Assembly (NCBI RefSeq): GCF_024256385.1
Contig: NZ_JAMLFW010000001.1
Coordinates: 2,604,001 to 2,668,000, forward strand
Length of the DNA stretch: 64,000 bases
Source: Anatilimnocola floriformis
Lineage (GTDB): Bacteria > Planctomycetota > Planctomycetia > Pirellulales > Pirellulaceae
Direction: 5' to 3'
Both the position numbers and the translations under genes were made by a program. A model generated the notes under the pieces. It worked only from the letters and a program-made list of their open reading frames with translations. It ran no database searches and was not told the origin of the DNA. The first letter of the stretch is position 1. Every line of letters starts with the position of its first letter. Shown here piece by piece: positions 31,860 to 59,215 of this stretch.

Positions 31860-31886
31860 CGGATTCACTCAACTGGAGGGTTTTCT

Positions 31887-38225: not shown

Positions 38226-40712
38226 TTACGAAAGTTTGATCATCTTGCGGAAGAACCATTCACCCAGCATCAAGCCCACGACGAGCGTGAACCATAAGGG
38301 CGTGGACCAAAGAGCGCGGTTGCGAGTCAGTTTCTCGACGCGCGGCTCGACCTGCAGATCGTTCGCCAGGTTGTGAACGGTCGTCAGGTCGTACGCTTTG
38401 CCGCCGGAGGTTTCGGCGATTTGATTCTGCAGTTTTTCATTCCGCACGCCGCTGCGTCGCTCGGCGGAAAGCGACGTGACTTCGAAGCGTTGCTCCGAAT
38501 ACTTGCTGGTGACCGGATCCTTCACGCGGAGCACGTATTCACCGACCGCGAGGACAGGAATGCGGGCTTCGAACACACCTTTGCGAAGCATGGGAACACG
38601 AATGGGCCGCAAGTCGCCGCCACCTAGACCGGGAATGACGAGTTCGGCTTCGAGCGTGCGTTCGGTGAACGTCTCTTCATCGAGCGGCTCGAAGTTGGCA
38701 TCGTAGGCTTCGACCGTGAGCGTGACTTTGTCTTCCACACGATACTGCGGTTGATCGACGCGAGCTACAAACCGTTTGTCGCTGCCGAGGGCGTGACTCA
38801 TGCCGAGCGAATAGATGAGCTGCGACCAGAACTGGCGGTAGAACTTTTCGCCATACTTGCGTCGCAAACGCCAGGTCTCATTGAAGCTGAGCATCACGAC
38901 CTTGCCTTTGCCAAACTCGCGAATGGTGATCAGCGGTTGCGGCGTTTTGCCGTCGCGGCATTTGTCGGTGGGATGCTCGGCCAGGACCTGCGCCTGATCG
39001 TGTAGCGCGGCAACCGGCTGGTACCAGGGCAACTTACCCATGTTGTCCCAGACTTTAGCGTTGTCGAGTTCGTTGGCACTCAGCTGCATGAAAGGATGCT
39101 GCGCGGCGTAGGGAGTCAATCGCAAGCGAAACTCCGGATACTCCGGCGCGTCGCGCATTTCGGCTTGCGGATCGACGATCACCGGCAACAAATCGGCGAG
39201 CGGAGTTTGTTGCAATTCCTTGGGACCAAACCGCGGGCCGCAGATCACCACCAAGCCGCCGCCGAGCTTGCCGACGAATTCTTTGGTCATTTCGCAGAAG
39301 CGGTCCTTGAGTTCGCCGCGGGGCATGTCGTCGAGAAACAGCACGTCGTTGGCAAAGAACTCGCTTCGCTTCGGCGTAATGGTCGGCAGGAAGAGCACGT
39401 TCGATTCACGGACGCGAGGATCCGACGAAGCCAGGAACGTACGAAAGCCATCCATGCCGACCAGCTTGTCACGATGGAAGACTTCTTTGATGAACCGCCA
39501 TTCCCAGGTCGGCTCGTGAGCGACATACATCAGGCGGAGATAATCGTCGATGATGTTGACTTCGCGAACCGCGTGGTTGTTTTGATCGACGATTTCTCCT
39601 TCGAGTTTGTCGACGGTTGCTGCGAACTGAAAACTGCCAGACTCTTCGGGCGTGAAGTCGATTTCGGCGGTCGTCACGTTCCCTTCGAGCGTGACCGTCC
39701 GCTGACCGATTTGAAACTCAGGGCTGGTGAGCGAATCGCCGCCGATCTTTCGACCAGTGACGCGGACCGTGACGCTTTGGCCCTGCAGGCCACTCTGCCG
39801 CAACTTGGCGACAACCTTGCTGCGCTCGGCCTTCTTCATCTTGGGATCGATTTGTAAATCGACCGCGAGATCGATCGCTTCCGTTGAACCGACACCTACG
39901 GCATAGACCGGCGCACCCAGTTTGGCGATCGGCGAGTTACCGGCCAAACCAATCGGCGATGAACCGCTGTTGTGAGCAAAGTCGCTGACGAAGACGACAC
40001 CGGCGAGTCGACCGGAGCCGAACTGCTGACTCGTCTCTTGCAGCACCGCACCGAGGGCGGTGACCTGACCGGTGTGCGTGAGTTGGTCGGCCAGATCGGA
40101 GGTGGAAAGCTTTTGATCGAGTCGATGACTGCCGTCGCTAAGCTTGCGCAATTGGCTGGTCGTATTGCCGTCGAAAAGGAAGGCTTCGATCTCGATGTCT
40201 TTCGCCTGCAGCTTTTGCAGTGTGTTGTCGTCGGCTTTCTTCAGCCAGGCCTGCACGTAGTCGAGCCGCGTTGGTTGCAGATTAGCGGCAACCGGCGTTT
40301 CATTGATCTTCGCTGGCGTGTCCGTTTTCAATCCTGTAGCCGAGACAAGCGCGGCGCGCTGCGCTTCCGGAAGTTGATCGGCAATGGCCATGCTGTCGGT
40401 GCCGTCGAAAACGACATACAGCTGCGGCTTGTGCAGGCGGGTGACATGCGCTCGGAGAATTGGATCGGCCAGCGTGATGAGAAGCAGCGCGAGCAGCAAG
40501 CCGCGACAAATGGCCAGGCCCCAGCGTGAGAGACCTTTGGGGCCGGGTTGAAACCGCAGATAGAAAACGATGGCCAGCACGAACAACGCGACCGCGGCGA
40601 GGAAGACCCAGAACGGTCCTTCCTGAGCCCAGGGCGCAGCGAGTTCCGGCGCGATCTCATCGATCGAGGTCACTCCCTCCAAGCCCACGAGCCATCCCCA
40701 CCAACGAATCAT
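38226..40712 (-). CDS. VWA / glutamine-amidotransferase-like membrane protein
   Basis: From ATG 40712 (GGAGAAGG nearby) the protein has 828 residues. Spans are PFWVFLAAVALFVLAIVFYL, GLAICRGLLLALLLITLADP and, near the end, WSTPLWFTLVVGLMLGEWFF. A VWA-like domain follows the second span with a degenerate MIDAS (VVFDGTDSMAIADQ instead of DxSxS). Residues about 450-640 look like the amidotransferase-like fold used by such proteins (VLFLDDMPRGELKDRFCEMT, GGGLVVICGPRFGPKEL), but no catalytic Cys-His pair is clear. Its start overlaps the upstream VWA gene by 4 bases. Confidence 0.85.
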   Translation of the reverse strand: MIRWWGWLVGLEGVTSIDEIAPELAAPWAQEGPFWVFLAAVALFVLAIVFYLRFQPGPKGLSRWGLAICRGLLLALLLITLADPILRAHVTRLHKPQLYVVFDGTDSMAIADQLPEAQRAALVSATGLKTDTPAKINETPVAANLQPTRLDYVQAWLKKADDNTLQKLQAKDIEIEAFLFDGNTTSQLRKLSDGSHRLDQKLSTSDLADQLTHTGQVTALGAVLQETSQQFGSGRLAGVVFVSDFAHNSGSSPIGLAGNSPIAKLGAPVYAVGVGSTEAIDLAVDLQIDPKMKKAERSKVVAKLRQSGLQGQSVTVRVTGRKIGGDSLTSPEFQIGQRTVTLEGNVTTAEIDFTPEESGSFQFAATVDKLEGEIVDQNNHAVREVNIIDDYLRLMYVAHEPTWEWRFIKEVFHRDKLVGMDGFRTFLASSDPRVRESNVLFLPTITPKRSEFFANDVLFLDDMPRGELKDRFCEMTKEFVGKLGGGLVVICGPRFGPKELQQTPLADLLPVIVDPQAEMRDAPEYPEFRLRLTPYAAQHPFMQLSANELDNAKVWDNMGKLPWYQPVAALHDQAQVLAEHPTDKCRDGKTPQPLITIREFGKGKVVMLSFNETWRLRRKYGEKFYRQFWSQLIYSLGMSHALGSDKRFVARVDQPQYRVEDKVTLTVEAYDANFEPLDEETFTERTLEAELVIPGLGGGDLRPIRVPMLRKGVFEARIPVLAVGEYVLRVKDPVTSKYSEQRFEVTSLSAERRSGVRNEKLQNQIAETSGGKAYDLTTVHNLANDLQVEPRVEKLTRNRALWSTPLWFTLVVGLMLGEWFFRKMIKLS

Positions 40713-43339
40713 GCTGCAACCTTCTCCGTTCCTGCTGGCGAAGAACGGAGCGCCGGCCAGGCCAGCACCACCATTTCGAGCAGCAGCAAAATCAATGCGG
40801 CTAACGCCAGATACCACCAACTTGCCTGACCGCGAATCGCGGCGCCGGCGAGGCTGATGTCTTCGCTGGCTTCGACCCAACGCAGCGTCGTGCCAGCGGT
40901 TTTTTCTTCGAACTCGGCCCGCGTGAGGGGGAGTAATTCTGATTCCGACGCGGCGCCGTTGACGACGACCGGCACTTCCCAAACAGGCTTGTCTGCGAGC
41001 TTCTCATCGACCTTCGCGACCGCTGTCAGATTGTTCGCATTCGGATCGTGCCGCACACCGGCCACCCGATACACGCCTCGCTGATACAAGCCGTGCAACG
41101 TCACGCCCTGGCGATCGCCGCCGATAAAGCCGATGTCGAGAGGTTCCGGATCGAGCTGCTGCGGCCGCGTGACCGAAACAGTCAGGTCGTGCTGATGGGC
41201 GGGCACTGGCAGCGTGAGTTGCTCGACGGGCTCGTAGTTTCGTTGCGGCAACGTCGAACGCGTCATGGTCCGCAGCAATCGATCGAACATCAAAATCGCG
41301 TTCGTCTTGGGCAGCGTGTTCCACGAAGACAGCAAGCCAGTGGCGACGAACAACACTTCGCCCTGTCCTTGCTTGCGAGCAATCAGAAATGGCGTTTGGG
41401 CGCGATCATCAAAGCGGGCCAGGATGCTGGGCAGTTGTTGCTGCACGAGGAGTTCAATTTGCGAAGTGCGAGCGGCTTCAGCCTCTGCGGACGTGGCCGA
41501 TTTTGCGGCAGCCTTCGCGTCGGGAGCATTTCCTTTGTCATCGGACCAGGTCAACCAATGCGGCGCGAGCACGGCGAGGCTGGCTTCGTCCTTGCGGATC
41601 TGTTCCTGATCGGCAGCGCTGATCTCGCCGGTCGTTTGCTTGGCTGTGAGTGTCTCGCGGCGCTTAGCGATTTCCTCGCGGAGCTTCAGTTCTTCCGTCA
41701 GTCGTTCGCGAGCCGCATTTCGGAGCGCTTCGCGCGTTTCGGCGGTGATATCGGTCGCCACGGCTTTGAAGAAGTAAGGCTCTTCGTACAGATCTTGCAA
41801 TTCCTGCGAACCGGTCGAGGGCAATTCGAAGAGGGCATTGCCGTTCATGCTGGCAAACGACAGCGAGAATGGTTTCGTGTTCGCGCCGGCGACTTCCGGC
41901 ACTTCGCCGACGTTTTCTTTGAGAGGCAGCGGTAAGATGCCGTCGCCCTCGCGCCAGGCAAGTTCCTGCCAGCGGGCCGGATCAAAATCAGCGCCGGCAG
42001 CGATGACCAGGCGGCCCCCCTGACGGACATAATCGCGCAAGAGCGAGACAGTCTCTTCCGACTGCGGTTCTTTCAAACCGGCGAGGACAACCAGCCGTGC
42101 GTCTTGCAGCACTTCCTGGTCGAGTTCGCCCTGCGTGATGTGGCGAATCTTGACAAGTTGCCGCGGAGCATCGGTGCGCGAAGTTTTCGGTGCGAGGAGT
42201 TTTCGCAGATGGCGAGTCTCGCCCAGGTGATTGCGAGCCGCGTCTTCACCAGAACCATACTGATCGACAAAGACGACCGGCAGGCCGGCGACAACCGGCA
42301 GCGCGAGATAACGGACATTGTCGGCCGCCAGCGAATCGTCGCTGATGATCTCCGCCTTCAGCGGAACGAAGATCGGATGATCGGGCTCGGGGACATCGGT
42401 GAGTGTATTGAAGACGTATTCGAACTCGACTTGCTTGCTGCTCGCGCCGGCTTCGAGCGAAATGGCCCGCTCGCCGATGACGGTGTCGCCGTAGGAGAGC
42501 TTGACTTGCATGTCGGACCGCTCGCTGCCGCCACCTTGGTGCTGCAGCTTGACGATGATCGTCGTCGGCGTTTCGATGTCCGCGAGACCATCGGCCACTT
42601 CGATATCGGCGACCCAGCTGTTTTCCCAGGCGGCTGAGGCGCCGGCGGGAGCAACGGCCACGAGTTGCCAGTCCTGCAACTTCTTCAGCACTTCGGCATC
42701 GGCGTCGCGCCAGTTGGTGGCTTGTTGATCGCTGAAGACCACGACGCGCTTCGAAAGTTCAGCGCCGTTCTCAATCGCACGCTGCATCAGATTCACGGCC
42801 TGCGCGAGACTCGTGCTGCGGTCGACGAGTTCGATCTTGCCGATGGCGTCGAGCGCGCCGTCTTTGGTGTCGTACGGATCAAAGCTCGTGCCATCGCGCG
42901 AGCCGCAGGCCGGCAGCACGGTGATCTTGCTGCCGCTTGGCAACTGATCGATCAGGCGGCGGGCGCGATCCTTGGCTTTGTCGAGCAGCGTGCCGTCGAG
43001 CGCTTCGTAGCCCATGCTCAAGCTGTTGTCGATCACGACAATGGCGTGCAATGGCTGGCGTTCATCGACGGCTTGATTGCAGCCGCGAGTGAAAAACGGT
43101 TGAGCAAGCGCGAGACCGAAGAGGAGCACCGCGAGCGTGCGCATCGCGAGCAGCACCATGTCGCGCAGATGCAGGATGCGGCGGTTCCGCTGCATGGCTT
43201 CCTTGAGGAAGTCCATCGCGGCCCACTGCACCGTACGATAGCGCCGGCGGTTGAGCAGATGAATGATGATCGGGCCGCAGGCGCAGGCCACGGCTGCAAA
43301 GGCGAACGACCAGACTGCGAATGACGGAAACCACCACAT
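40709..43339 (-). CDS. BatA/VWA-type membrane protein
   Basis: The 876-residue protein begins with the N-terminal double-span domain of aerotolerance-type BatA proteins: FAAVACACGPIIIHLLNRRR, RTVQWAAMDFLKEAMQRNRR and RDMVLLAMRTLAVLLFGLAL. A VWA domain follows with an intact MIDAS (VVIDNSLSMGYEALD). The large rest is beta-rich with a helical insert around residues 590-690, and the C-terminus has a span (YLALAALILLLLEMVVLAWP). The start ATG 43339 lies one base after the cyclase-fold gene. The family is associated with MoxR and DUF58 proteins, both present downstream. Confidence 0.92.
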   Translation of the reverse strand: MWWFPSFAVWSFAFAAVACACGPIIIHLLNRRRYRTVQWAAMDFLKEAMQRNRRILHLRDMVLLAMRTLAVLLFGLALAQPFFTRGCNQAVDERQPLHAIVVIDNSLSMGYEALDGTLLDKAKDRARRLIDQLPSGSKITVLPACGSRDGTSFDPYDTKDGALDAIGKIELVDRSTSLAQAVNLMQRAIENGAELSKRVVVFSDQQATNWRDADAEVLKKLQDWQLVAVAPAGASAAWENSWVADIEVADGLADIETPTTIIVKLQHQGGGSERSDMQVKLSYGDTVIGERAISLEAGASSKQVEFEYVFNTLTDVPEPDHPIFVPLKAEIISDDSLAADNVRYLALPVVAGLPVVFVDQYGSGEDAARNHLGETRHLRKLLAPKTSRTDAPRQLVKIRHITQGELDQEVLQDARLVVLAGLKEPQSEETVSLLRDYVRQGGRLVIAAGADFDPARWQELAWREGDGILPLPLKENVGEVPEVAGANTKPFSLSFASMNGNALFELPSTGSQELQDLYEEPYFFKAVATDITAETREALRNAARERLTEELKLREEIAKRRETLTAKQTTGEISAADQEQIRKDEASLAVLAPHWLTWSDDKGNAPDAKAAAKSATSAEAEAARTSQIELLVQQQLPSILARFDDRAQTPFLIARKQGQGEVLFVATGLLSSWNTLPKTNAILMFDRLLRTMTRSTLPQRNYEPVEQLTLPVPAHQHDLTVSVTRPQQLDPEPLDIGFIGGDRQGVTLHGLYQRGVYRVAGVRHDPNANNLTAVAKVDEKLADKPVWEVPVVVNGAASESELLPLTRAEFEEKTAGTTLRWVEASEDISLAGAAIRGQASWWYLALAALILLLLEMVVLAWPALRSSPAGTEKVAA

Positions 43340-43340
43340 G

Positions 43341-44516
43341 CTACTTCCCCGCCTTCGCTTTCTGGCGGAAGCTTTCGATCTTCCCTTCTTGCAGGATGGG
43401 GAGATAACGATTGGGAATCGCGAGAATAAAGCAAGCGACGCTCGTCGCGTAGAGCTGCCCCTCGCGGCCGCCGACGTGACCATGCGTCTTCGCGCCCTGA
43501 TCGTGCCAACAGCCGTTGTTCGCCGAAGTCTTGTCTTCTTGAACCTGCGCCGCGACGAGATAATCGCGCAGCCGCGGATAACAATCCTGCCACGGTTCGC
43601 CGTTCACTTGATAGAGAGCCTGGCCGACGTAATACAGCGTGTAAGCATCGAAGGGCATGTTTCCTTTGCGCTCGGTCGCCTTTGGCAGTTCTTTCACCGC
43701 GGCCGAGATCACTTCCATATTCTTGCCGATCCGCCAGTCTTCGTATTCGCCGAACTCCTGCATGCAAACGACGCCGGCCGCGGCCATCGCAATCGTGCCG
43801 CCACCACCGCCACGGCTGTAAGTGAACTGCCCCGGCAACTTCATTTGCTCGGCTTCCGACAAACGGCGGTCACCCTTGCAGGCGTAGTGATCGCGGACGC
43901 TCTTGATGGCGAGCTGAATCACTTCCGGCGGCACTTCGAGACCGCTATCGACGGCCGAACGGAGCGCCTTGGCCTGCATCACGGCGAGGCTCAGATCGTG
44001 ACCATTCTTTTGTTGATGGGCTTTGTAATCCCAGCCGCCATCCTCGCACTGCACATTGGCAATCAGCTTCAAAGCGCCGTCGAGAACGCGATTTAATCGG
44101 CGGTCGCGATTGGCCGTCATCCCGTGTGCCTGGCCGAGGACGAACGTCGCCAGGCCGTGGTTGTACATGTCGCGCTGGCCATCGCTGATGTTGAGCAGGC
44201 CCGAGGGCTTGGCTCGGCTGACGACGAACTCGAGCGCCTTGTCTACTTCGCGGCCATATTTGCCCCGGCCTGGAGCATGCCCGGCCGAAAGAAACGCCAG
44301 AGCACCCATGCCGACCAAGCCTAGGTCGTTCGAGCCCCAGTTTCCTTCGTTCCCCTGATTTCGAGCGAGCCAATCGAGGCCGCGATCGAGCGACAGTTCG
44401 CTTTCGGGGGTGATTTCGTCGAAATCGAGCCGCAAGGACTGAGCTTGGGCCGGCGGCTGTGTCGGTACAACCAACACGGCGACGAGCAAACCAAAGATCA
44501 GCGAGCGCTGCAACAT
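43341..44516 (-). CDS. Secreted terpene-cyclase-fold (squalene-cyclase-like) protein
   Basis: From ATG 44516 the 391-residue protein has a signal peptide (QRSLIFGLLVAVLVVPTQPP). QW-type repeats of the squalene-hopene cyclase / prenyltransferase alpha-alpha barrel follow: GLDWLARNQGNEGNWGSNDL, LIANVQCEDGGWDYKAHQQK and IAMAAAGVVCMQEFG. The DxDD motif of true cyclases is absent, with GHDLSLAVMQAKAL at the matching place. It is therefore likely a non-enzymatic fold, perhaps a binding platform. It is the first gene of the VWA/MoxR cluster by position. Confidence 0.88.
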   Translation of the reverse strand: MLQRSLIFGLLVAVLVVPTQPPAQAQSLRLDFDEITPESELSLDRGLDWLARNQGNEGNWGSNDLGLVGMGALAFLSAGHAPGRGKYGREVDKALEFVVSRAKPSGLLNISDGQRDMYNHGLATFVLGQAHGMTANRDRRLNRVLDGALKLIANVQCEDGGWDYKAHQQKNGHDLSLAVMQAKALRSAVDSGLEVPPEVIQLAIKSVRDHYACKGDRRLSEAEQMKLPGQFTYSRGGGGGTIAMAAAGVVCMQEFGEYEDWRIGKNMEVISAAVKELPKATERKGNMPFDAYTLYYVGQALYQVNGEPWQDCYPRLRDYLVAAQVQEDKTSANNGCWHDQGAKTHGHVGGREGQLYATSVACFILAIPNRYLPILQEGKIESFRQKAKAGK

Positions 44517-44688
44517 CGTTGCCTTTCGGTTGGTTGAGGGTGTGTGGGAGGGAAGGCGGGTAGGAAAACAGGCGAGAACAGCCATTTTCCTTGGCCGGTC
44601 AGTACATTGCTATGGCCGAATAGCGAAAAACGTTACAGATGTGTCGAAATTAACGACAGAAAGTCGGCTTCGCCCAGACTTCGTTCCA

Positions 44689-44707: not shown

Positions 44708-47700
44708 CTATTGAATGGGGCCGCTTGGCACCAGTTCGACGACATCCCGATTGGGATCGTGCTGTCCGCGACCAAAGAAGGTGAAGACACGGTCCTTGTA
44801 AGGCACCAACACGCCAAGCCGCGGCGCCAAATCTTGTAATGCGGTCAGCCGCGTTGCCGACCGCTCTGCGCCAGTCGCTGGATCCAGCCAAGTGAGTTGG
44901 ATGGTCCATTCTCGCTTGTCAGGCTGCGAAACTTTGCGAGCACAGAGAATCGACTGCTGATCGACAAGCGCATGCGGCTGCATGTCGGCTATTGGCGTGA
45001 ACCATTTCCGTTTGCCGGTTGCAGCGTCGAGCGCTTGCACGCCAGACTCCGTTCGCAGGACGACATTCACTTGCGCAACTCCCCAACAACCCAAGACATC
45101 GGGGATCAGTGTTTCCCATTTTTCAAATCCAGTGGCTGGATCGATGCAAGCCACACTGCGCGTCCCCGGCTGCGCGATGATCAGATCATTGCCTGCCACA
45201 ATCGGCCGCTGAAAAGACTGCAGCACCCAGCGCGGATCCTCTTCGCTCGGCAACGTGACTTGCTTCCGCACCCACGCCACCTGGCCGCGAGCATCGAGCC
45301 CGAGCGTGATGCCACCGAGGGCAACTACCAGACGGTGATCGAGCGGCAGCACCTCGCAGCACGCGCGACTTCCCCAGGTGTTTCGCAGGCGGATTAGGTC
45401 GCGCTGCACTTGCAGTTCGCCGGTTGCGGGATCGAGCACATTCCAGCGAAGTTGGCCTTCTTGATTCTCTTGCAAGGCGACGCTGAGCGCGACGATTTGG
45501 CCGTGCAGATAAACCGGATCGGAGGCAAAGAACTCGCGCTCGCCCCGCTCTGAAGACCAAAGCAAATCGCCGTTCGATTTATTCCAGCAGGAAATTTGCG
45601 GATTGCGCCCGTACAACTGTCGCGCGAGAACTTGATCGCGCAGAACGAGGGGCCGCATGGCGATGAGCGCAAAATCCTGAGCCTTCTGCATCGTTCCGGA
45701 TGGCGTTTTACTTTGCCACATTCGTTGGCCGTTGGTCAGATTGTAGGCAGCCAGTTGAAAACGATTCGTGACCAGCAGCGTGTCTCCTTCGACCGTTGCC
45801 GATAGTTGCATGTCGGGCCAAGCCACTGAATTCTGATTCGTCTTGCGGCCCACTTCTTCCTGCGGACGGTCGCCAACCGGGCCATCGAGGCGGCTACGGT
45901 TGTTGGCCGCAAACGCCGCTGGCTGCGGCACGGCCAGCGAACTTCCGGGAATGATATGAACCGCCGGACTGACGGCGGCACTCGTGCCGCGGCCGCGCAT
46001 TTCCGCAACTAGCGCTTCGAACTGCTGCGGATCGAGCTTCAAATTGTTGAATTGCACTACGCTCGTCGCTGGCGAACCCACATCGCGGCCGAGCATCGCC
46101 GCGGCGAGGCGAATGCGCGGTGCGAGATCACCGGTCAGCAACGGATGTCGTTCGATGGCCAGTTGATAATGGGCCAAGGCTTCTTCAAACCAACCGTTCG
46201 ACAGCGCGCGATCGCCGAGCCAGCGCGAAGCTTCGGCCGACTCCGAAGTAGCGCCGAATTGCACCGTGGCGAGTTCCACCGCCGCCGCATCCGCCGCCGC
46301 CACGGCCTGGCCGATGCGCAGCTTTGCGAGCGGACCATAGCGTTGACCGAGCGCGTCTTTGAGTTGCGGATAGTCACGCAATAGCAACTGCACGGCAACT
46401 GGCAGCGACGTGAGGAGTTGCCGATCTTTCACATAGGGTGAAACGCCGGGCGCTGCTTCTGGATCGACGCAGGTGATCAATCGCGCCGCATCTTCCCAGG
46501 CCTCGCTGTCGAGCACCGACTGCAGTTCGCTGGTCAGGTTGTACGTTTCCTTGCTGACTTCTTCGACGAGGAGCGGCCGCCAGGTTTCTTTGATCACGAC
46601 CGGACCCGTCGCCGCCCGCGTGGCGGTTTCGCGGCGAGCGTGCGCCTCGGCCCAGGCGATCAGCGGAATCGTTTCCTCCAGATGATAGAACCGCAACTGC
46701 TCACAGAGTTCCAAAAGTTCGCGAGGTTGCTGCGCGTAGGCACGCTGCATGAGCTCGGTGCGGATCAAACCCTCGAGCAGCTGCAGTGGCGGACCATAAT
46801 TGCGATTCGCCGTGTGAATCGGCGTGCTGACGTACGTGCGGCGAATCGTCGACCACGGCGGCAGGTTGCGATCTTGGAAAGCTTGCTGGCCGACATTGAC
46901 CAGACGTTTTTCCAAGCCGATCTTCATCGACTGGCCGTCCTTCAGATCGCTGACCAGCACAAACGCATCGCCATGGATTTTGAGCTGCTCGTCGACGGGC
47001 AACTGCCGTGTGTATGGATCGTCGAGCAACAACTCCAGCACTGGATGCGACAGCTCTTTCGTCGCGCCAGCAGCGAGCGTCTTGATTGCGCAAGCCCGTC
47101 GCCATTCGTCGGCGTTCACTTCACCCGGCTTGCCTTTGCTGACCGCTTCCTGCCATTCAGCGAAGGCCGCCGCCGGCAGTGACAAGGCCTGATCGATAAG
47201 TTCCGCTTTCGCGAGGTTCGTCAGCGCAGACAGCTCACGGATTTCCAATCGCACGAGCGTGGCCTCCGTTTTCGGTCGTTTGCCCACGAGGAACAGGCCG
47301 AGCGAATCGATCTTCGGCCGCATCCCTTCGCGCATGTAATCGGGCTGAGCCCAATTGCGGCCGTCCGACGACATCCAGCAGCGGAACGTTCCGCAACCGA
47401 ACTGCAACTGAAGCCAACAATTTTCGGCACTAATGCAAGGTTCTACGGCTTCGTTGTGAGGCCCGAAATCCATTTCGTGATCGTTATCGACGCCGCGCGA
47501 ACGCGCAATCAACCGGCCGTCGCGGCGGTTCTTGAAAAACCGCAGGCACTCATCAGGTTTTCCTTCCTCGCGCCCCAAATACACAGCGACGCCAGGCGTG
47601 ACGTTCTTCAGCTGAAAGATAACTTGCTGCAACCCTTGCTTCGGCAGCGGCGTCCAGCACCAGGCATATTTCTCGGCGTTGTCGTTGCGAAACGTCAGTG

Positions 47701-48910
47701 AGCCGTCGTCGTTCTTGATCGGCGGCGCAACTTCCGGAACGGAAGATTTCCAAGGGAGATCGGCGGGGCGATCGGTTTCGAAGGTCAGTTTCCGCGGCGG
47801 ATCGCTCTGCGGAGCATCCTTCGCGCGGACGAACTGCAAACCATAAAAAGTTGCCCGGCCATCGAAATAAACATCATCGGGCGGCCCGGACAAAGGCGCG
47901 CTCACGAGCACGATGTCGCCGCGACTGAGCACCACCTGGCCATCAGCATAGCGCAGATCGAGCGGACCTCCCTGCCGGATCTCGGTGCGGTAGTTTCGAT
48001 AATCGTCCGTCGCCGTAATCGCCAGCGTGTCAGGCCGGGCGGTTTTGGGTTTGCGCGTCGTGGTGTACGCCGCCCAGCAGCATTGATTGTCTTGGTGATA
48101 GACGAGCGTCACTCCTTCGTTCTTATGAAAGAAGTGAATCTGCAGTTTGTTGTAATTCTCGAGCGACAATCGCAACAGCGAATCGTTAAGCCAAGGCGAT
48201 TTCAGCCGGGCGATTCCTTCCAGCGCGCCGCAGCGGCCAAACTGGGTGTCGACTTCGTGAAAGCGATGGTTTTGTCCCGCGGCGCCTTCGAACCATTGCT
48301 GCAGCGCATCGCGACGAACCACTTCTTTGGTCAGATCGAAGGTTTGATAGGCAATCTCGGCAAACGGCTGCGGCTCGAGCTTCGATTCCGCAACTGCCTG
48401 CCACGGCAGCGGCACGGGGCCGGGCTTGGGAATCTTGTTGGTTCCCGGCAGTTTATTGTCGGTCGCTTGTTCGGGCTTCACCGCCACATTCGGCCCGATT
48501 TCGGTCGGCTCTTCAGGCTTAGGTTCCTCGATTTCTGGCTTTTCCTCTTTCTTCTTATCGCCGTTTTTTTCCTCTTTTTGCTGGGCAATTTCCGGAGTGC
48601 TGAACGCGTTGAACGCGAGCACGCCGACGACCGCGATGGCCGGCACAACAATCATCAGGGCGATGGCGAGCAGGCTGAGCCCACCGCGCTTGGTTTGCTG
48701 GGCGCGGGCCTTGGCGGCAATCTCGGCGGCCGAGACTTTCAGCCGGGCGAGCGCACTTTGCAAATAACTTTCGAAATGCACTTGGCCGGCGAGCGCATCG
48801 CGCAGCGCCGGCGACTCGGCGAGCCGTTTGCGGAGGAGTTCGATTTCCTCCAGCGACAGCTCCTCCGGCATTTTTTCGTCAAGCAGTTGCAGCAATTCCT
48901 GATCAGTCAT
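44708..48910 (-). CDS. Giant membrane partner of an ECF sigma factor, PQQ-like propeller
   Basis: The 1400-residue protein begins with a cytoplasmic helical head (TDQELLQLLDEKMPEELSLE, LRKRLAESPALRDALAGQV), which resembles the head of planctomycete ECF-associated proteins. A span lies at residues 78-100 (LSLLAIALMIVVPAIAVVGV), then a Lys/Glu/Pro-rich linker (108-150). Two concanavalin-like beta domains follow, with PGVAVYLGREEGKPDECLRF, then a helical region about 560-1000. From about residue 1027 there are PQQ-like propeller blades, such as QLAAYNLTNGQRMWQSKTPS, SCWNKSNGDLLWSSERGERE and GVQALDAATGKRKWF. It may sense or be the anti-sigma factor. It begins 31 bases after the sigma gene. Confidence 0.85.
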   Translation of the reverse strand: MTDQELLQLLDEKMPEELSLEEIELLRKRLAESPALRDALAGQVHFESYLQSALARLKVSAAEIAAKARAQQTKRGGLSLLAIALMIVVPAIAVVGVLAFNAFSTPEIAQQKEEKNGDKKKEEKPEIEEPKPEEPTEIGPNVAVKPEQATDNKLPGTNKIPKPGPVPLPWQAVAESKLEPQPFAEIAYQTFDLTKEVVRRDALQQWFEGAAGQNHRFHEVDTQFGRCGALEGIARLKSPWLNDSLLRLSLENYNKLQIHFFHKNEGVTLVYHQDNQCCWAAYTTTRKPKTARPDTLAITATDDYRNYRTEIRQGGPLDLRYADGQVVLSRGDIVLVSAPLSGPPDDVYFDGRATFYGLQFVRAKDAPQSDPPRKLTFETDRPADLPWKSSVPEVAPPIKNDDGSLTFRNDNAEKYAWCWTPLPKQGLQQVIFQLKNVTPGVAVYLGREEGKPDECLRFFKNRRDGRLIARSRGVDNDHEMDFGPHNEAVEPCISAENCWLQLQFGCGTFRCWMSSDGRNWAQPDYMREGMRPKIDSLGLFLVGKRPKTEATLVRLEIRELSALTNLAKAELIDQALSLPAAAFAEWQEAVSKGKPGEVNADEWRRACAIKTLAAGATKELSHPVLELLLDDPYTRQLPVDEQLKIHGDAFVLVSDLKDGQSMKIGLEKRLVNVGQQAFQDRNLPPWSTIRRTYVSTPIHTANRNYGPPLQLLEGLIRTELMQRAYAQQPRELLELCEQLRFYHLEETIPLIAWAEAHARRETATRAATGPVVIKETWRPLLVEEVSKETYNLTSELQSVLDSEAWEDAARLITCVDPEAAPGVSPYVKDRQLLTSLPVAVQLLLRDYPQLKDALGQRYGPLAKLRIGQAVAAADAAAVELATVQFGATSESAEASRWLGDRALSNGWFEEALAHYQLAIERHPLLTGDLAPRIRLAAAMLGRDVGSPATSVVQFNNLKLDPQQFEALVAEMRGRGTSAAVSPAVHIIPGSSLAVPQPAAFAANNRSRLDGPVGDRPQEEVGRKTNQNSVAWPDMQLSATVEGDTLLVTNRFQLAAYNLTNGQRMWQSKTPSGTMQKAQDFALIAMRPLVLRDQVLARQLYGRNPQISCWNKSNGDLLWSSERGEREFFASDPVYLHGQIVALSVALQENQEGQLRWNVLDPATGELQVQRDLIRLRNTWGSRACCEVLPLDHRLVVALGGITLGLDARGQVAWVRKQVTLPSEEDPRWVLQSFQRPIVAGNDLIIAQPGTRSVACIDPATGFEKWETLIPDVLGCWGVAQVNVVLRTESGVQALDAATGKRKWFTPIADMQPHALVDQQSILCARKVSQPDKREWTIQLTWLDPATGAERSATRLTALQDLAPRLGVLVPYKDRVFTFFGRGQHDPNRDVVELVPSGPIQ

Positions 48911-48941
48911 TCGGCCCGTCTTTCAGCGAGTCATTGAACAT

Positions 48942-49616
48942 TTAACTCGGCTCGCTCATCGTTAGTCGACTTTCCAAACACTGCTTCAGCGCCAACCGAG
49001 CCCGGTGCACCAGCAGTCGCACTGCTCCTTCGCTGCGGCGAAGCAGACCAGCGATCTCCGTCATCCGCATCTGCGCCCGGTACCGCAGATCGATCGCTTG
49101 CTTCGCACTCGGCCCTAGCGCCTCCAGGCAATGCGGCAGTGTTTGCAACACATCGCCCGCCGGGGCATGGCGATCCTGCACGAGCTGATCGAGTTCCAGA
49201 CACAGCTCGGTCCAAGCCACTTCTTTTCGTCGGCTGATTCGCTTCACATGCTCGCGAAGTAAGTTCCGCGCGATGCCGATTAGCCAAGGACCGACTTGCG
49301 TTGCCCGCGACAGTTTCTCGCGCCCCTGATAACAGCGGAGAAACGTCTCCTGCGTAAGATCTTCCGCATCGGTCGAATCAAATAGCCGGGCTCGCAAATA
49401 GCCGTAAATCGTTTGCTGATAAAACTCAACCAGCGCCGTGAACGCCTTTTGATCACCCCGCTGAGCGGCCAGGACCAGGCCCTGATGTGGTTCCGCCGTT
49501 GCGGCGTTGAGGGCCGACTGATTCACCGCCAGGCTGGTTTCTTCCTCGGGAAGCGCAGTCTCAGCCGCGAGCGCCACGGCGTCGATGCTTTGCGCGGGTC
49601 GAGGGGCCGAATCCAT
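48942..49616 (-). CDS. ECF-type RNA polymerase sigma factor
   Basis: The 224-residue protein is a sigma-70-family ECF factor. Region 2 is seen in AFTALVEFYQQTIYGYLRAR, FDSTDAEDLTQETFLRCYQG and VGPWLIGIARNLLREHVKRI. Region 4 is seen in LPHCLEALGPSAKQAIDLRY, MTEIAGLLRRSEGAVRLLVH and RARLALKQCLESRL. An N-terminal extension of about 40 residues is Ala/Glu-rich. The downstream gene 31 bases on encodes its probable membrane partner. No -35/-10 target sequence could be assigned. Confidence 0.93.
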   Translation of the reverse strand: MDSAPRPAQSIDAVALAAETALPEEETSLAVNQSALNAATAEPHQGLVLAAQRGDQKAFTALVEFYQQTIYGYLRARLFDSTDAEDLTQETFLRCYQGREKLSRATQVGPWLIGIARNLLREHVKRISRRKEVAWTELCLELDQLVQDRHAPAGDVLQTLPHCLEALGPSAKQAIDLRYRAQMRMTEIAGLLRRSEGAVRLLVHRARLALKQCLESRLTMSEPS

Positions 49617-49753
49617 AGCGTGGTCAGGCAGCGAAGAGGTGGGAGGAATTGGGCAGGCGGGAATTCTTCATCATAGTCGCGAACCCCGCCGATCCGCAAT
49701 CAAGTGGTTCGCAACGACAGCACTGTTACAATATGGGTGACCGCGAATGTTTG

Positions 49754-50626
49754 ATGAAGAAAGGGTACGTCTTGAACGCTGTGGAAATCGGATCGGAAAT
49801 ATCAGCTCGCACGCTCGCCCAGCGCGACGCGCTCCTCGCGTATCTACAGCCGCTGGCGAGCGCCGCCGTCGCATTTTCGGGGGGCGTCGATTCGGCTGTT
49901 GTCGCGCAGGCTGCGTTTCTCGCACTGGGCGAACGAGCCGTGGCCGTTACCGGCGTGAGCGCTAGCCTCGCTTCCGGCGAACTGGAACAAGCCCGCGCGA
50001 TCGCCCAGCAGATCGGCATCCGTCATCAGATCGTTTCGACCGATGAACTAACGCGAGCCGGATATGTGCAGAACTCTCCCGACCGCTGCTACCACTGCAA
50101 AACCGAGCTCTACACCAAACTGACCGAGATCGCTCCCAGCTTGGGAGTCGAAGTGTTGCTGAACGGCGCCAACACCGACGACCTGGGCGACTATCGCCCA
50201 GGCATGCGGGCCGCGAGTGAGTTTCGCGTGCTGAGTCCGCTCGCCGATTGCGGCCTGAACAAAGCCGACGTCCGTGAGCTCGCGAGATTGTGGAATCTCC
50301 CCTGTGCCGACAAACCGGCCACGCCTTGCCTATCGAGTCGCATCGCTTACGGCGAACAAGTCACTCCCGAACGCCTGGCCCGCATCGATCAAGCCGAAGT
50401 CTTTTTGAAAGAGCTAGGCCTCGGCGAGATTCGTGTTCGCTTGCATGCTGGTGAATTGGCCCGCATCGAAGTCCCCGTCGCCATCCTGCCACGACTCACC
50501 GAGCCTGCACTTCGCGAGCAAATCGCCGAGCGGTTTCGGTCTCTCGGCTTTCGTTTTGTTACGCTCGACCTGCAGGGCTTTCGCTCGGGAAGTCTCAATT
50601 CGCTGTTGAGTATTTCGAAGTCTTAA
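49754..50626 (+). CDS. larE: LarE-type sulfur transferase for the nickel-pincer cofactor
   Basis: The 290-residue protein has the PP-loop SAAVAFSGGVDSAVVAQAA of LarE, then VSASLASGELEQARAIAQQI, ELYTKL and LLNGANTDDLGDYRPGMRAA. CLSSRIAYGEQVTPERLARI contains the Cys expected to give up or bind sulfur. It also carries CYHC (SPDRCYHCKTELY); that pair plus the later Cys is the set seen in iron-sulfur LarE proteins. LarE adds sulfur to the NPN cofactor precursor. The exact start is uncertain (ATG 49754, or TTG 49772 after GAAAGGG). No larB or larC is seen. It overlaps the next gene by 4 bases at the 3' ends. Confidence 0.9.
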   Translation: MKKGYVLNAVEIGSEISARTLAQRDALLAYLQPLASAAVAFSGGVDSAVVAQAAFLALGERAVAVTGVSASLASGELEQARAIAQQIGIRHQIVSTDELTRAGYVQNSPDRCYHCKTELYTKLTEIAPSLGVEVLLNGANTDDLGDYRPGMRAASEFRVLSPLADCGLNKADVRELARLWNLPCADKPATPCLSSRIAYGEQVTPERLARIDQAEVFLKELGLGEIRVRLHAGELARIEVPVAILPRLTEPALREQIAERFRSLGFRFVTLDLQGFRSGSLNSLLSISKS

Positions 50627-51517: not shown

Positions 51518-54500
51518 TTAGCTATTCGGCGGGATCCGTTGATCTGCTCCCATGCCCACCGCATTAAAGTCCGTCGGGGCGAGGCCTGAGTCGACGACGT
51601 CGGCGGCTTCCCAGCAGAAGTCGTCGTCGCCGAGGCCGCCGAAGAGGTCGTCGTTGGCGCCGTCGTGGGTGATCGGCGCCAGGCCGGTGCTGTTGCTGCC
51701 CGTGCTGCCCCACAGGACCAGCAGCGTGAGCAGGGCGTCGTCGTTGTCGCTGCCGTTGGTGTAGGTCGCGGGGCTGAACGTCGTGGTGTTCGCGACGCTC
51801 GTCCAAGTGCTGGACTCGTTCAGCACGCTGCCGCTGATCAGCAGGTCGTTGCCCACGCCGCCATCGAGCAGATCGGCTCCCGTGCCGCCAAAGATCACAT
51901 CGTTGCCGGCTTCGCCGTAGAGTCTGTCGTTGCCAGTGCCGCCGCTGAGCAAGTCGTTGCCGCCAGCGCCGCTCAGCGTGTCATTGCCATCGCCGCCGTA
52001 CAGACGATCGTCGCCGTCGCTACCGTCGAGAATGTCATTTCCCGCGCCGCCGTTGGCGTAATCATTGCCGCCGCCAGCCGAGATCTGGTCGTTGCCGCCG
52101 CCGCCATAGAAGACATCGTTGCCACCGAGACCGCTGAGAATGTCGTCGCCGCCGGTCGCGCTATTTTGCGGCGTGGGATCGCCGCTGGTCGGGCTGTTGT
52201 CGCCCCAGATCACGTTGTCGCCGCCGCTGCCGTTGATGCGGTCGTTGCCGTCGCCGCCCACCAGCCAGTCGTTGTTCATCGCGCCGCTGAGCACATCATC
52301 GCCACCCTCGCCGTAGAACTCGGCGGGGATCGTGAGATTGCTTTGCGTGATATTATCATTCTGCGCGCCACCATAAATAATAGTCTTATTACTGGCGCTA
52401 TAATTGCCGCTTCCCGCCGTGATCCGCAACCGAACCTGGTTCGGATTGAGAGTCGTGGAGTTCTTCGTCAACTGCACGATGTCGGAACCGGGAGTTGTGC
52501 GGGCAAACAGATCTCCCATCTGCACGTTGGTCAGCTTCCCTTGGTCGACGACATTGATATCTTCAATCTGCGTCCACGTCAAAGGTTGAATGCCAGTCGC
52601 TACTACGGTTCCAGGCGAGAAGGTCGAAACAATCACCGAGTTGGCATTCGGCAGGGCGCTGATATCAATATTATTACGATCGCCCGTCTCATCGCCGAGC
52701 GGCGCGGCGAGTCCCGTCGGTTGACCGCCGTCGATGGCGATCGCCGTGCTGGTGCTCGGACGAATCGAACGCACCGTGCTCGCCACGGCGAGGCCGACGT
52801 TCGTCGCACCGGTGCCGCTGATGCCCGGCGGTTGTTCGCCGAAGGTATCGTTGCCGTCGCCGGCGTGCGGATTTCCCGGCGAATCGCCGTACAAATTGAT
52901 GTTCGTCACACCACTGGCCGTCGCATTCGGCGTGAACAGTCCGGTCCCGCCAATTTGATCCGAAGTGAACAGCAGGAACTGATCGCTGCCGGTCCAGCCG
53001 CTGAGATTAACGGTATTGAGATCGTGCGCCGGCATCGTGTTCACAAACCGACCGTCGATCGAATCATTAAAGGTCGTGCCGGTATAATCTAATACGTCGA
53101 TATTACGAAAGACGACGTCACTACTAACCGTGCTGGTAATGCCATCAATGAAATAGTCCGCCGAGACGCCGGCATTCACCGCACCGATCACTACCGTATC
53201 ACCATTGAGAGTATCGCCGGTATCTATGATCGTCAGCGTATCGGTGTTTCCTAGCAGATTGCCATCGCTGCCATCAACAACCACCGGCCCTTGAATATTA
53301 TCAACGGTGTTCGTGCCATCATACAACTGAAACGAATCACTGCCGGCATTGCCTTGTAAGAGTGCGCTCACGCTGGCGGGTAACGAGCGCAGACGAATGG
53401 TATCGGCCGAGCTGTCGCCGCCAGGAAGTGTTAGTAGATCATTGGTATTGCCGGCCACCACTTGCAGGCTGGTGAGCGTGGCATTGTCGACGCTCACGAC
53501 ATCGATCAGTTCCGCGCCACCGCCGCCGACAACCACCGCGCTGGCGAAACCGCCGAAGGTCGTGGTCGCCACGCCGCCGTCGGCGACAAGTTGCGTCGTC
53601 GGGCCGATGTCAGTCAGCGTGATGTTGCTCGTCGCTGCCGTGCCGGTTGCGTCGACGAGCAGCGTGCCACCACCGCCATTGAGATTGAGTGGCTCGATGT
53701 TCGCGACCGAAATCAACAACGTCGGTGCGCCGATCGTGGGGAAAGTTCCCGGCGCGGCGAGCACGTTCCCGCTGTTACCAGCATCGCTCGTATCGCTGAA
53801 GTAAACCGTGTTCTGCGCGGTGAGATAGTTGATCGTGAGCGAATCGGTGCCGCCTACGCCGCCGTCGAAGTGAATCGAAACATCGTTGGCATCCCAAGGC
53901 GTTTGCACACCGCGGAGCGTTTCGAGCACGAGATCGGCACTGCTATTCAGATGCGAACCAGCACTCACACCACCGCCGATGCCGCTGTTGTTGACGGCAG
54001 GAGCGCCGCTGTTGAACCGCGGCAAGCCACCCGCCGTTTCGGTGATCATCAACGCATCGTTGTCGGTCGAACCGATGATCGTCAGCGATTCGATGTTGGC
54101 ATCAGCGCCGCTGAAAACCGGCAAGCTGTTGACCAGCAACTGCAGCGTATCGCCGGCATTGTTGAGCCGAGCGTCGATGGTATCGGCGACGCCGTTTTGA
54201 TAGCCCGAGAACTTCATATCGAGCACCAGATGAAACGCCGAGCCCGGCGGATCGCTGCTGACATCTTCGATATCGTTGTAGGTGAGCGACGCGGCTTGCG
54301 TGCCAAAGCTGAACGAGCCGTTGCGATCGCCCGGGCCGAGCGTGAGCGTCGGCACGCCGAGGCCAGCCGTATCGACAATCAGTTGATCGCCGGCAGGAAA
54401 CACACCACTCGTCGGCGCGAAACCAAAGATCCGAATCGGCGTGAGCACATCGCCGACATCTTGATCGGGCCGTACGTTGAACGAGTTGCCGGGCGAACCC

Positions 54501-57500
54501 GCACCGACATCGGCCGAGCCGTTGAAGACCGCCAGCGGCGCATCGACATCGGCATCCCACACCAGCGAACCACCAACCCCCGGATCGGCATCGCCCGCAT
54601 CAATATTGATCGTCACGGTCCCCGCGGCCACTAGCACCGCCGTCGCCGGCACCGTCGCATTATCACCGGCCGACAACGTGATCACGCCACCAGCATTCAA
54701 CGTCACCCCCGCGCTCACCGCGATGTTCTGCCCCGTCGTCGCCGCATCGGTCGCCGTCAGCAACACATCGCTACCAACGCCACTCGCCGTCGCATTCTCC
54801 GTGACGCTGATGCCGCCAGCCGTCGTGATCACCAGATCATTGCCACCCGACAAACCAACGACGGCGGACAACCCACCAATCGTGAGATTGCCGGTGTTAT
54901 TCACAAACACGCCGCCGGTGCCGCCCACCGCTTCAAGCGCCGAAATGGTCGCTTCGAGCGGATCGGCACTACTCCCCAGACCAGTCGTCGCCGTAAGCAC
55001 GATGCCCGTGCCGGTGATATTCATCGCCGCCGCATTGTTATCGCTAATCGCGCCAGCAACTGCATTGATCCGGCCATTCGCCGTCGTCACATTGCCCACC
55101 GCTACATTGCCAGTGTTCACCGTCAACGCATTCCCACCGAGCGCGAGCGTACTCGTCGCCGCCCCCGTGAACGCCGACACCGTCTCATCACTGAGCAACT
55201 GCAACGTCGCGCCATTGGCCACACTCACCGCCCCAGCACCATCGGCAATCGCATTCCCCCCCTGCACCTGCAACGTTCCAGCGCTGACCGCCGTCGTGCC
55301 GGTGTAGGAATTAGTCCCAGACAACAACAACGTACCGGGCCCGTTCTTGGTGAGATTGCCAACACCCGAAAGCACACCGCTCAATGTTTTCGTGGCTGCC
55401 GCCGTTGTTACATCAATCACACCGCCACCAGCGTTGATCGTGAAAGGCTTGGCGTAAGTAATCGCACCAGCGCCGTCCAATTGCAACGTTCCGGTCGTCG
55501 ACGCAGTTCCCAAGCTGCCATTTCCAGTCGCAATGATGGCAGCGTTCGTCGCCAGTACTCCATCCTGGATGTTCAGAGCGCCTGTGCTATTGAGGGGCAC
55601 TCCCGTCACGGTCACCGTACCCGCTGTCGATTTGACGATGGAACCCGCCCCATTGATTGCGGTTGTGCCGGAGAGGGCGACCACGCTACCCGATTGCCAT
55701 TGGCTCGTGCTGACGAGCGTGACCTTCACGCCGTCGAGTTGCAGCGTGCCGCCCATGAGATGCACGCCGCCGAACTGCTCGCCGACTTCAAATTTGGCGA
55801 CGCCGCCCGTGTTGATCGTGATGAAGGTCGCATCGGGCAAGTTCGGATTGCCAGCGCCACCCGCGCCAAACTCGAATCGGCCGCCATTGTTCACCACGAT
55901 GCTGACGGCGTTGAAGTTGTGCGTGCCGGACGGATTTTCGACGCGGAATGTGCCGCCGTTGATCGTCGTCGTGCCGGTGTAAGTGCTGTTGCTGCGATGC
56001 ACGATCGTGCCGCTGGTGACGACGATGGCACCCGTGCCGGTGAGCACATTGTCGACGTTGTAGGTGTTCGAGCGGTTGAACTCCAACGTCGTCGAGGCCG
56101 CGATCGCGACGTTCCCCGAGCCGAGCGTTCCCGTCGTTCCGCCGTTGCCAATCGTCAAGCGGCCGGCGCTCAGCGTCGTCGCGGCGTAGGTATTGGTGCC
56201 GGTCAGCGTGAGCGAACCAGCGCCCGCTTTCGTCAGACCGCCAGCGCCGATGATGTTGCCGTCGAGTTGACTGGCGGTGCCGGTGTTCGTGATCGAGAGA
56301 CCGGTGCCGGTTGAAATCGTTGCCGCTGCCGCGGAGTTGATATTCACGGTCGTGACGTTGAGCGCGCCGGCCACCGTCGTCGCGCCGTTGAAGTTCACTA
56401 CGTCGGTGCCAGTGCCCGTATTGATCGTGAGATTGGTGTTCGCGTGAGCATTGCCCGCCGAGGCGACCGTGACGGTATCGTTGCCGTTCACCGTGGTCGT
56501 GTTGATGACCAAGTTGGTGTTATTCCAAAACGCCGCCGATTCGATGGCCACGGCATTGCTGGTGCCAGAAACGCGAAGGGCTTGATTCGTGCCGCCGGAA
56601 AGGAAGTCGACGCCGCTTTGCACGGTCAGCACATCGTCGGCGCCAGGCAGCGTCAACGTTGCTGTGGCCATGCCGGCGATATCGACCGGAGTTAGCGCCA
56701 CGAAGTTAATAGTACCGACGGAGGTTACCACGGTGCCATCGCCGGTGGTCGTCGCGCTCGGCGTGTACGTCGCCGTTTCGGTACCGCTGCCGATCACAGC
56801 CAAGCCATCGGCGCCAGCGCCGCCGTCGTATTCAATGCCGCCGGCGGGAATCGAATCGCCAGCGAGATTTACCGTCAACGCGTCAGTACCATCCATCAAG
56901 TTGACGAAGATTTTTCCCGTCACGCTGGCAAAGGGTACTTCGATCGTGTTGGCATTAATTTGGATCGCACCCACGCCAGCCGTCAGCGGCTGCAACGAGT
57001 CGTTGACTCGAATGTTCGCCCCAACGCGTGAGATGGTGACATTATTATTCGCGCTCCCCAGAGTGTCTTGAATCAACAGATTGCCGAGGCCGTCGACGCC
57101 GACTTCGGGCTTAGGAATGAAGATGAACGAGACGACGCCCTCGGTGGCCAGCGGATCTTCCAGCGTGGAGCCGGGGACGTCACGCGTTTGAATTTCCCAG
57201 CCAGTTCCGTTGGCCTGGTAGCTGACGATATTGTCAACGTTGTTCGTCTCGCCACCTTCCGGCGAGATGATCAAGATGCCGGTCGAGGGCGTTTCGCCAG
57301 GAATGGTGAGTTGATAAGTGCCGACTCCAGTCTTCGCGACACTCGTCGTACCCGAACGAGTGGCGGCCGTGATCGAGCCGTTGCCCAGGATGCGGCCGGA
57401 TACATAGCGAGGATCGCCAGCGGGGATGTAAACGAAAGAAGCGGGATCGGCTTCTGTGCCGGCGCCGTTGGTGCCGTTGTCACGCGAGAGAATCGTCCAC

Positions 57501-59215
57501 GTACCATCGGCGTTGGGACGCGACAGCGAGTAATTGTCTTCGTTGTTGGGTTGCGTCACGAGCAGCACGCCGCTCGATTGCGAGTTAATGCCCATCGAGG
57601 TGAGATTGACGGTGGTCAAACCGCCGCCGGCATCGATCACGTGTGTTCCCACGGCCAAACCCGGCGAAGAACTCACGAGCGTGTCGTTCACCGCGCCATT
57701 GGCATCGGCCGCATTCTTAAACACCGCGCCAATCCAATTATTGGCGTAGTCGAAATAGGCTCCCGAAAAATTCACGTTCCATTCGCCGCCGGCCGGGGCA
57801 TCGGAGATCGGCACGAAGTAATCACCGGCAGCAACTTCCGTCGCAGGCGTGGCGTAAATCGTCCCCAGCGTATCGCCGAAGGCGTTGTTGTTGCGGCCGT
57901 TCTCCGAGATGCTCGTCATCAGCACACCGCCGGCGACGTTCGTGCCGATCGGTTTCGTCTGCACGTTGAAGTCGCCGCGATTCGAGCCGGCGAAAACCAC
58001 GAAATCGCCCGTCGCCTGCGAGACCGTGGCATCGACCGAAGTGACTGCGTTGCCGGTGTCGTTTTGCACAACGGCGACATCGGCCGCTGAAATAACTCCC
58101 TTCGGCGGCAGCGGTGCAGCCAGCGGCAGGAACGCAAACGAAGCCAGCGGTATGGCGCCAATGTCTTGCAAACCAGCGCTCGGCAAGTCGCGCGTTTGAA
58201 TGATCCAGCCGTTACCGCTGGCTTGATACGTCACGATATTGTCGACATTGCCGCCGGTGCCGCCCTCAGGCGACATCAGCAACACACCCGAGGTCGGACT
58301 TTGACCGGCGATATCGAGACGATATTGTCCGCCGCCGATTTCACGCAGCGTGTAACCGCCGCTGTTCAGCAAACCTTGTCCGTCGCCATTGAACTTTCCA
58401 GACACCACTCCTGTACTGCGCGGAATAAACACAAACGAAACGGAATCGGCTTCGTACGCGGCTGCATCGGCGCCGTTGTCGTGGTCATAGATGGTCCAGG
58501 TCCCGTCAAGGTTCGCTTGCACGAGCGCAAAATTGTCTTCATCCTTTGCGCTCGATACCAGCAACACGCCATCCGTTTGCGAGTTGATTCCGAGGCTCGT
58601 CAAGTTGACCGTATATTGTCCGCCGCCGGCATCGACAAAGTGCGTGCCGAGAGCCAGGCCGGGGCTGCCGATCAGCGAAGTGATTACGCCGCCGTTCGTG
58701 CTGTTGAGGGCCGTGCCGCCGATCCAACCATTCGCGAAGGGAAAGTATCCCGCTGCCACGTTGGTGTTGTATTCCGCGCCGGTCGTGGCCAGCGGACCTG
58801 CCTCCGACACAGAGATCGACAGGCCAGCAGCGAGACTCGTCGTGGCGCTGGTGGCATAGCGCAAGCCCCCAACTTCGCCGTTGTCGCGACCATTTTCGCG
58901 AATGCTCGAAATCAACACACCGCCGGCTAGGTCATCGGCTGCGCTGCTGCCGATCTGCACGTTGTAATCGCCGCGGGTCGAGCCTGCGCGAATGGCAAAG
59001 TCGGCAGTGGCCTGCGCGAGCGATAGCGTTACCGAGGCTGCCGTATCGGCCGTGTCGTTTTGCACGACGGTGATGTTCGCCGCTGAGTAAGGGAGCGTGG
59101 CCATCAGATTGCGTGGTTCGAGCGTCTCGAAAAACGCCCGCCGCCGCTGGTTCTCGAGATTCCTGTTTTGCTTCGGGCGGTGCGCAGTGGTAGCCATGAT
59201 TTTGGGACGATTCAT
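51518..59215 (-). CDS. Giant LEPR-type surface protein with RTX repeats, 2565 residues
   Basis: I start at ATG 59215; an ATG at 59197 or 59341 is possible. Residues 1-40 end in [15 protein letters not shown], the LEPR-XLL motif of giant planctomycete proteins. Residues about 47-378 and 379-705 are two copies of a module, each holding the pattern GVLL...DN...W.I..RD...SF.F.P twice. From about 960 to 1320 there are autotransporter-associated strand repeats ([40 protein letters not shown]). A long beta-rich region follows. At about 2290-2460 there are calcium-binding RTX nonapeptides ([35 protein letters not shown]). It is probably exported and surface-bound; no type I secretion genes are adjacent. 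Confidence 0.92.

Follow-up and report, generated by a model that had tools for sequence, protein, structure and literature searches.

A single-span protein of 1,400 residues as the predicted anti-sigma partner of an ECF sigma factor in Anatilimnocola floriformis

The window analysed here, a stretch of 64,000 nucleotides from Anatilimnocola floriformis, contains an ECF sigma factor gene followed by a gene for a 1,400-aa membrane protein; very probably, this protein keeps the sigma factor at the membrane through its short inner head, and its large outer part probably conveys the conditions that prevail outside the cytoplasm. We place high confidence in the reading of the protein as a single-span anti-sigma factor, with a head that would sequester the sigma factor and an outer part that would monitor something outside the cytoplasm, a reading derived from sequence comparisons and structural models. 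The two genes and the parts of the protein are as follows.

48942-49616, minus strand: ECF sigma factor gene, 224 aa, with region 2 at residues 62-129 and region 4 at 159-210
48911-48941, minus strand: gap of 31 bp between the sigma and anti-sigma genes
44708-48910, minus strand: membrane protein of 1,400 aa, proposed anti-sigma factor and sensor
48686-48910, minus strand: proposed cytoplasmic anti-sigma head, residues 1-75, from alignments and the model of a relative (four helices in the modelled ortholog)
48617-48673, minus strand: single membrane span, about residues 80-98
47822-48355, minus strand: outer all-beta domain 1, about residues 186-363, without family (AlphaFold)
47228-47800, minus strand: outer all-beta domain 2, about residues 371-561, of a family distantly like DUF1349 (AlphaFold)
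45986-47230, minus strand: helical domain, about residues 561-975 (AlphaFold; weak TPR match at 892-923)
44756-45925, minus strand: BamB-like beta-propeller, about residues 996-1385 (AlphaFold, PQQ_2/BamB)

The product of the first gene is a short protein in which both conserved regions exceed the curated Pfam cut-offs, Sigma70_r2 with E 7.8e-14 (51.7 bits against a cut-off of 24) and Sigma70_r4_2 with E 1.3e-7 (31.6 bits against 25.7), and it is thus an ECF sigma factor. Among the NCBIfam models listed, the top score was that of TIGR02989, the model of a Rhodopirellula/Verrucomicrobium sigma subfamily, whose cut-off the protein misses (108.2 vs 124.55 bits). The first-pass annotation of this DNA had described an ECF sigma factor gene followed by a large open reading frame, and both are present as listed, on the minus strand. 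In most orthologs the two genes overlap, commonly by 8 nt.

The head is charged, and the 15 residues preceding the span have a net charge of +4 and the 15 following it of -1, so that the head is predicted to be cytoplasmic; across 60 orthologs the span starts at a median residue of 82, and in 52 of them its inner flank carries more positive charge than its outer one. The short cytoplasmic head and single span of the earlier description are therefore borne out as predictions, with residues 1-75 placed inside by flank charge and the span near residue 80. The outer part was modelled confidently over residues 186-1385 (AlphaFold, alignment of 64 sequences; pLDDT 89.1, pTM 0.88). Its propeller matches PQQ_2/BamB at residues 1101-1303 (Pfam, E 4.1e-18) and BamB in structure (Foldseek E 3.5e-13; Z 25.7, 3.4 Å over 332 residues), whereas the threshold of the BamB equivalog TIGR03300 is missed (28.5 vs 285.2 bits). 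The PQQ-like propeller noted previously is thus correct as a fold, and the label is no evidence of PQQ binding.

Lectin-like outer domains had also been proposed, and here the outcome is divided: of 26 family members, three show weak matches of beta domain 2 to DUF1349, a member of the concanavalin-A-like group, the best with E 4.8e-5, though the copy of the source genome itself shows none, while family matches to beta domain 1 gave nothing convincing. Compared with each other, the two beta domains reach a probability of 3%, which leaves common descent unsupported, and their comparison with the LamG domains of two FecR-type partners gave at most 1.3%, with a LamG profile made from two sequences only. 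The list from the structure search with the whole outer model was filled by propeller matches, so that it barely probed the beta and helical domains; the helical domain is a portion of the outer part that the earlier description had missed. The size of the protein, previously called unusual for an anti-sigma sensor, is so in general, but its own family typically has open frames of 1,400-1,740 aa, and large outer sensors on anti-sigma factors are known, such as RsgI of Clostridium thermocellum (PMC12203970).

The partnership of head and sigma factor is seen in their inheritance. Of 196 genomes of the order, 71 have matches to the protein, partial propeller matches counted, and in 24 of the first 30 loci a head is encoded with a sigma factor directly upstream on the same strand, the overlap being most often 8 nt. 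Five of the other six (L003, L014, L015, L029, L030) have neither head nor sigma factor, and the sixth, L027, begins inside the head at a contig edge, with the first half of the head and the sigma factor on another contig (L047). Among 20 further regions, ten carry head, sigma factor and outer part (L043 and L045 repeat earlier loci), five are headless copies without sigma factor (L031, L035, L039, L042, L044), and two, L046 (192 aa) and L048 (180 aa), are head-only partners that have a sigma factor and lack the outer part; one is the L047 just described, and head-like proteins without an adjoining sigma factor are found in L049 and L050, both in genome G090. The latter domains (L049:1573-3321 and L050:2593-6594) are carried one by a 556-aa protein and one by a HEAT-repeat protein.

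The survey was extended to 397 genomes of the class, in which a head profile (A2) and a profile of the sigma clade (A6, built from sigma factors adjoining heads) were run separately, the best eight sigma candidates of each genome being scored. With cut-offs of E<=1e-11 for the head and E<=1e-45 for the sigma factor (next sigma 5e-33), which were placed in gaps of the scores once these were known, an intact head is found in 56 of the 397 genomes and the sigma clade in the identical 56. In 55 of the 56 pairs the two are adjacent on one strand, with profile matches 7 to 491 bp apart; the exception, G413, has an intact head and its sigma factor on a different contig, at the edge. Exceptions of another kind are G090, with its two head-like proteins that lack an adjoining sigma factor, and G047, which has an additional sigma factor of the clade without adjoining head. 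The additional sigma gene of G047 (L135:2830-3804, minus strand) lies beside a decarboxylase-like gene, and a similar open reading frame adjoins the head-like protein in L049, which looks like the separation of a duplicated pair.

A second search, in which every sigma candidate of 27 chosen genomes was scored, agrees with the larger survey. The clade is absent from all ten of the genomes with headless copies that were examined (G129, G126, G185, G189, G089, G084, G108, G193, G017, G118) and from all four with degenerate heads (G327, G369, G484, G472), although other sigma candidates are plentiful there; it is also absent from four genomes without a match to the protein (G053, G113, G117, G125) and from G034, whose head state was outside the comparison, and it is present in seven genomes with intact heads (G000, G172, G083, G047, G009, G041, G349) and in G413. 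A tree of 64 outer parts has five changes of head state, a number that the supported branches alone already force; the sigma factor follows the head in 5/5 independent pairs (sign test p = 0.0625, the floor for five pairs). The long homologs L115-L118 carry degenerate heads in genomes without the sigma factor, and these may be what is left of anti-sigma heads that have decayed.

The 1,400-aa protein is thus encoded directly with a sigma gene and co-inherited with it, while the outer part can exist without either head or sigma factor. An inert cytoplasmic leader, adjacent to the sigma gene merely through a shared operon, is hardly credible as an account of the head: head and sigma factor appear and disappear jointly, whereas the outer protein persists, often with the operon, and head-only partners exist. 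The suggestion made earlier, of a head able to hold the sigma factor, is supported by the 56/56 co-occurrence, the co-absence in 14 genomes and the five independent changes, and further by the gene overlap, the similarity to heads of FecR partners and the confident model of a relative.

This model was obtained from locus L034, where the sigma stop codon is followed by 20 in-frame codons and then by the head, so that reading through gives a sigma-linker-head chain of 285 residues; the alignment used (A5) has five read-through rows, 34 sigma-only rows and 44 head-only rows. The sigma factor and head of the source genome are 44% and 45% identical to those of L034. The fused chain was predicted with pLDDT 90.3 and pTM 0.86, with low confidence only in the linker and tail; the pTM suggests, short of proof and for the cognate pair alone, a defined mutual arrangement of sigma factor and head, whose packing the 20-residue linker may bias. 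The modelled head consists of four helices (202-216, 224-234, 238-258 and 265-277 of the fused chain), as expected for the four-helix cytoplasmic domain of roughly 70-100 residues of class I anti-sigma factors. Structure searches with the fused model gave rows that all belong to the sigma part, the first of them sigma factors from anti-sigma complexes, with no anti-sigma chain matching the head, and the predicted arrangement of sigma2 and sigma4 differs from that of sigmaE-RseA (16.5 Å over 155 residues).

Co-inheritance and the predicted complex bear on the partnership of head and sigma factor, not on its sign, and some FecR proteins also act positively; the head might then be a membrane tether or positive co-factor, which binds the sigma factor and activates or localises it. 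We consider this improbable, as cytoplasmic heads that are small and helical and whose genes directly accompany those of ECF sigma factors are inhibitors as a rule (PMC7406223, PMC8999054).

The head itself has no credible match in Pfam, including any anti-sigma family, and none by sequence among solved anti-sigma domains, and its alignments contain neither a conserved Cys nor a zinc-binding Cys/His motif. In its own genome the first head profile found no second intact head and one weak match (E 0.04). More widely, the weaker matches of profile A2 in the 397 genomes (E from 1e-6 to 0.01) lie in 55 places, including two degenerate heads of the long family; from the other 53, 19 were fetched by head score alone (18 loci), and an ECF sigma factor lies directly upstream in 19/19. 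In a scan of eight such proteins FecR matched six, once below the cut-off; two of these six also match Laminin_G_3, and the remaining two gave no family match. The heads of the fetched open reading frames were found by the profile with E 9e-8 to 3e-4. The closest known relatives of the head, by sequence, are therefore FecR partners, and the upstream sigma factors together with the FecR matches indicate that the head is part of a wider anti-sigma-like module, even though the FecR domain itself (PF04773) was not found by Pfam in the 1,400-aa protein. In the source genome (8.9 Mb) there are 55 Sigma70_r2 matches and only two FecR matches, both 0.8-0.9 kb downstream of a sigma match, so most ECF partners in this genome remain unassigned.

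Upstream of the sigma gene lies a short element that is conserved in relatives.

49670-49699, minus strand: promoter-like TTG-N3-N18-TAnnAT

It occurs in 28 of 58 upstream regions of the sigma clade, where shuffling predicts 0.5 (none of the 100 shuffles exceeded 2), and other spacings from 14 to 23 are found in at most 6 regions. None of 13 loci with headless or degenerate-head copies has it (Fisher p = 0.001, an optimistic value because the sequences are related), and this absence may partly reflect lineage. The element resembles a housekeeping promoter and could be a conserved one of that type, or else the promoter on which the sigma factor itself acts, and autoregulation is therefore only a suggestion; it is too short for regulon prediction in the 8.9-Mb genome. 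It lies at the 5′ side of a divergent open reading frame (49649-50626, plus strand), which we take to resemble the ATP-dependent sulfur transferase LarE. Beyond, at 51518-59401 on the minus strand, an open reading frame of 2,627 aa has autotransporter-like repeats and, near its C-terminus, glycine/aspartate-rich repeats, as judged by eye, and looks like a secreted or surface protein.

Downstream, the gene for the 1,400-aa protein is followed by an operon with the following genes.

43341-44585, minus strand: 414-aa protein with a weak squalene-hopene-cyclase-like (toroid) match, the next operon gene
40709-43483, minus strand: BatA/VWA membrane protein
38226-40982, minus strand: 918-aa protein without Pfam family
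36203-38215, minus strand: 670-aa protein without Pfam family
31968-36206, minus strand: 1,412-aa protein without Pfam family
30834-31868, minus strand: MoxR AAA+ ATPase
29465-30376, minus strand: DUF58 protein

The MoxR protein also has a match, weaker than that to AAA_3, to bpMoxR, the model for MoxR-vWA-beta-propeller ternary systems (E 2.6e-12). In 9 of 14 regions of relatives the outer protein is followed by this operon with its gene order kept, within the length of each stretch; six of the nine are headed (L121, L122, L123, L125, L131, L132) and three headless. The latter extend to DUF58 (L127), to the homolog of the 1,412-aa protein, where the stretch read stops (L134), and to the homolog of the 918-aa protein, where the contig stops (L126). 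G126 carries the headless outer protein as a tandem pair, which opens the operon (L014:439-5990, also L134:733-8426). The operon behind headless copies implies that the outer part probably has a role of its own, independent of the sigma factor. In the remaining five regions, four headed (L124, L128, L129, L130) and one headless (L133), the operon is not beside the gene, and the link is therefore not obligatory.

These observations bear on what the outer part does. It could be an envelope assembly factor or a subunit of an envelope machine, the head providing feedback on the operon with no outside ligand, an alternative that competes with ligand sensing and not with the anti-sigma role. Its leading position in the operon of the three headless genomes and a propeller closest to BamB are in its favour, whereas the five regions in which gene and operon are apart weigh against it, and it is a serious possibility, if not the one towards which we lean. 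More tentatively still, the protein may be a subunit of a MoxR/BatA/DUF58 machine, in which a propeller subunit would hold the sigma factor and free it according to load; if so, the operon would control its own dose, and lineages that dropped the sigma factor would have kept the machine and lost the head.

Under the preferred reading, that of a sensing anti-sigma factor, the cytoplasmic four-helix head (residues 1-75) would sequester at the membrane the ECF sigma factor encoded just upstream, and the outer part would monitor something outside the cytoplasm and decide its release. What it monitors may be the condition of the envelope machinery (BatA/VWA, MoxR, DUF58) that its own operon encodes, or a client of this machinery. 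The earlier idea that it senses a polymer or protein is a guess; since the propeller is BamB-like and the operon encodes MoxR and BatA, a protein or the state of envelope assembly is at least as likely a signal as a polymer. Propeller and operon suggest that the envelope machine's state is sensed, and the beta domains make a polysaccharide possible. The signal would lead to release through cleavage in the span or through a conformational change; M50 protease matches are present in five open frames of the genome, so regulated proteolysis is possible. The freed sigma factor would transcribe its targets, probably including its own operon.

Among known systems, the nearest are the FecR-domain proteins encoded after ECF sigma factors in the same class, with or without Laminin_G_3, which share with the 1,400-aa protein an N-terminal head recognisable by profile, an outer part and the sigma gene directly upstream. 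Unlike them, the 1,400-aa protein has no FecR domain, is about two to three times longer, and has an outer part of beta domains, helices and a BamB-like propeller, while its sigma factor belongs to a separate clade, set off by a gap in scores. No paper on the pair was found in the literature searched, whose reach did not extend to the main planctomycete and ECF classification papers.

RsgI, the anti-sigmaI factor of Clostridium thermocellum, has a short cytoplasmic anti-sigma domain, one span and a variable outer sensor (PMC12203970), and the same succession of short inner domain, span and outer sensor offers an analogy for the mechanism proposed here. However, RsgI acts on a different sigma family in a Gram-positive organism, with other head and sensor domains, and no RsgI N-terminal domain is among the Pfam matches listed for the 1,400-aa protein or its head; moreover, substrates and proteolysis have been studied for RsgI, whereas the 1,400-aa protein is known from sequence and models. 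With class I anti-sigma domains, such as RseA, RsiW, RskA and ChrR (PMC7406223), the head shares its predicted cytoplasmic location, four predicted helices and pairing with an ECF sigma factor. It differs in having no sequence match to the solved domains and no conserved Cys; the zinc-binding Cys/His motif, absent here, is present in some class I groups only, and the modelled arrangement of sigma2 and sigma4 is not that of sigmaE-RseA. Finally, BamB has the same propeller fold but is a separate lipoprotein of the BAM complex, while here the propeller is the last domain of a protein that spans the membrane and has an inner head. The single-span anti-sigma factor is a known kind, of which the present protein is a well-supported variant with an unusual outer architecture and operon; the family represents a sharply bounded anti-sigma module that occurs naturally in headless and head-only forms and is directly testable, and it hints at a route from an envelope machine to transcription.
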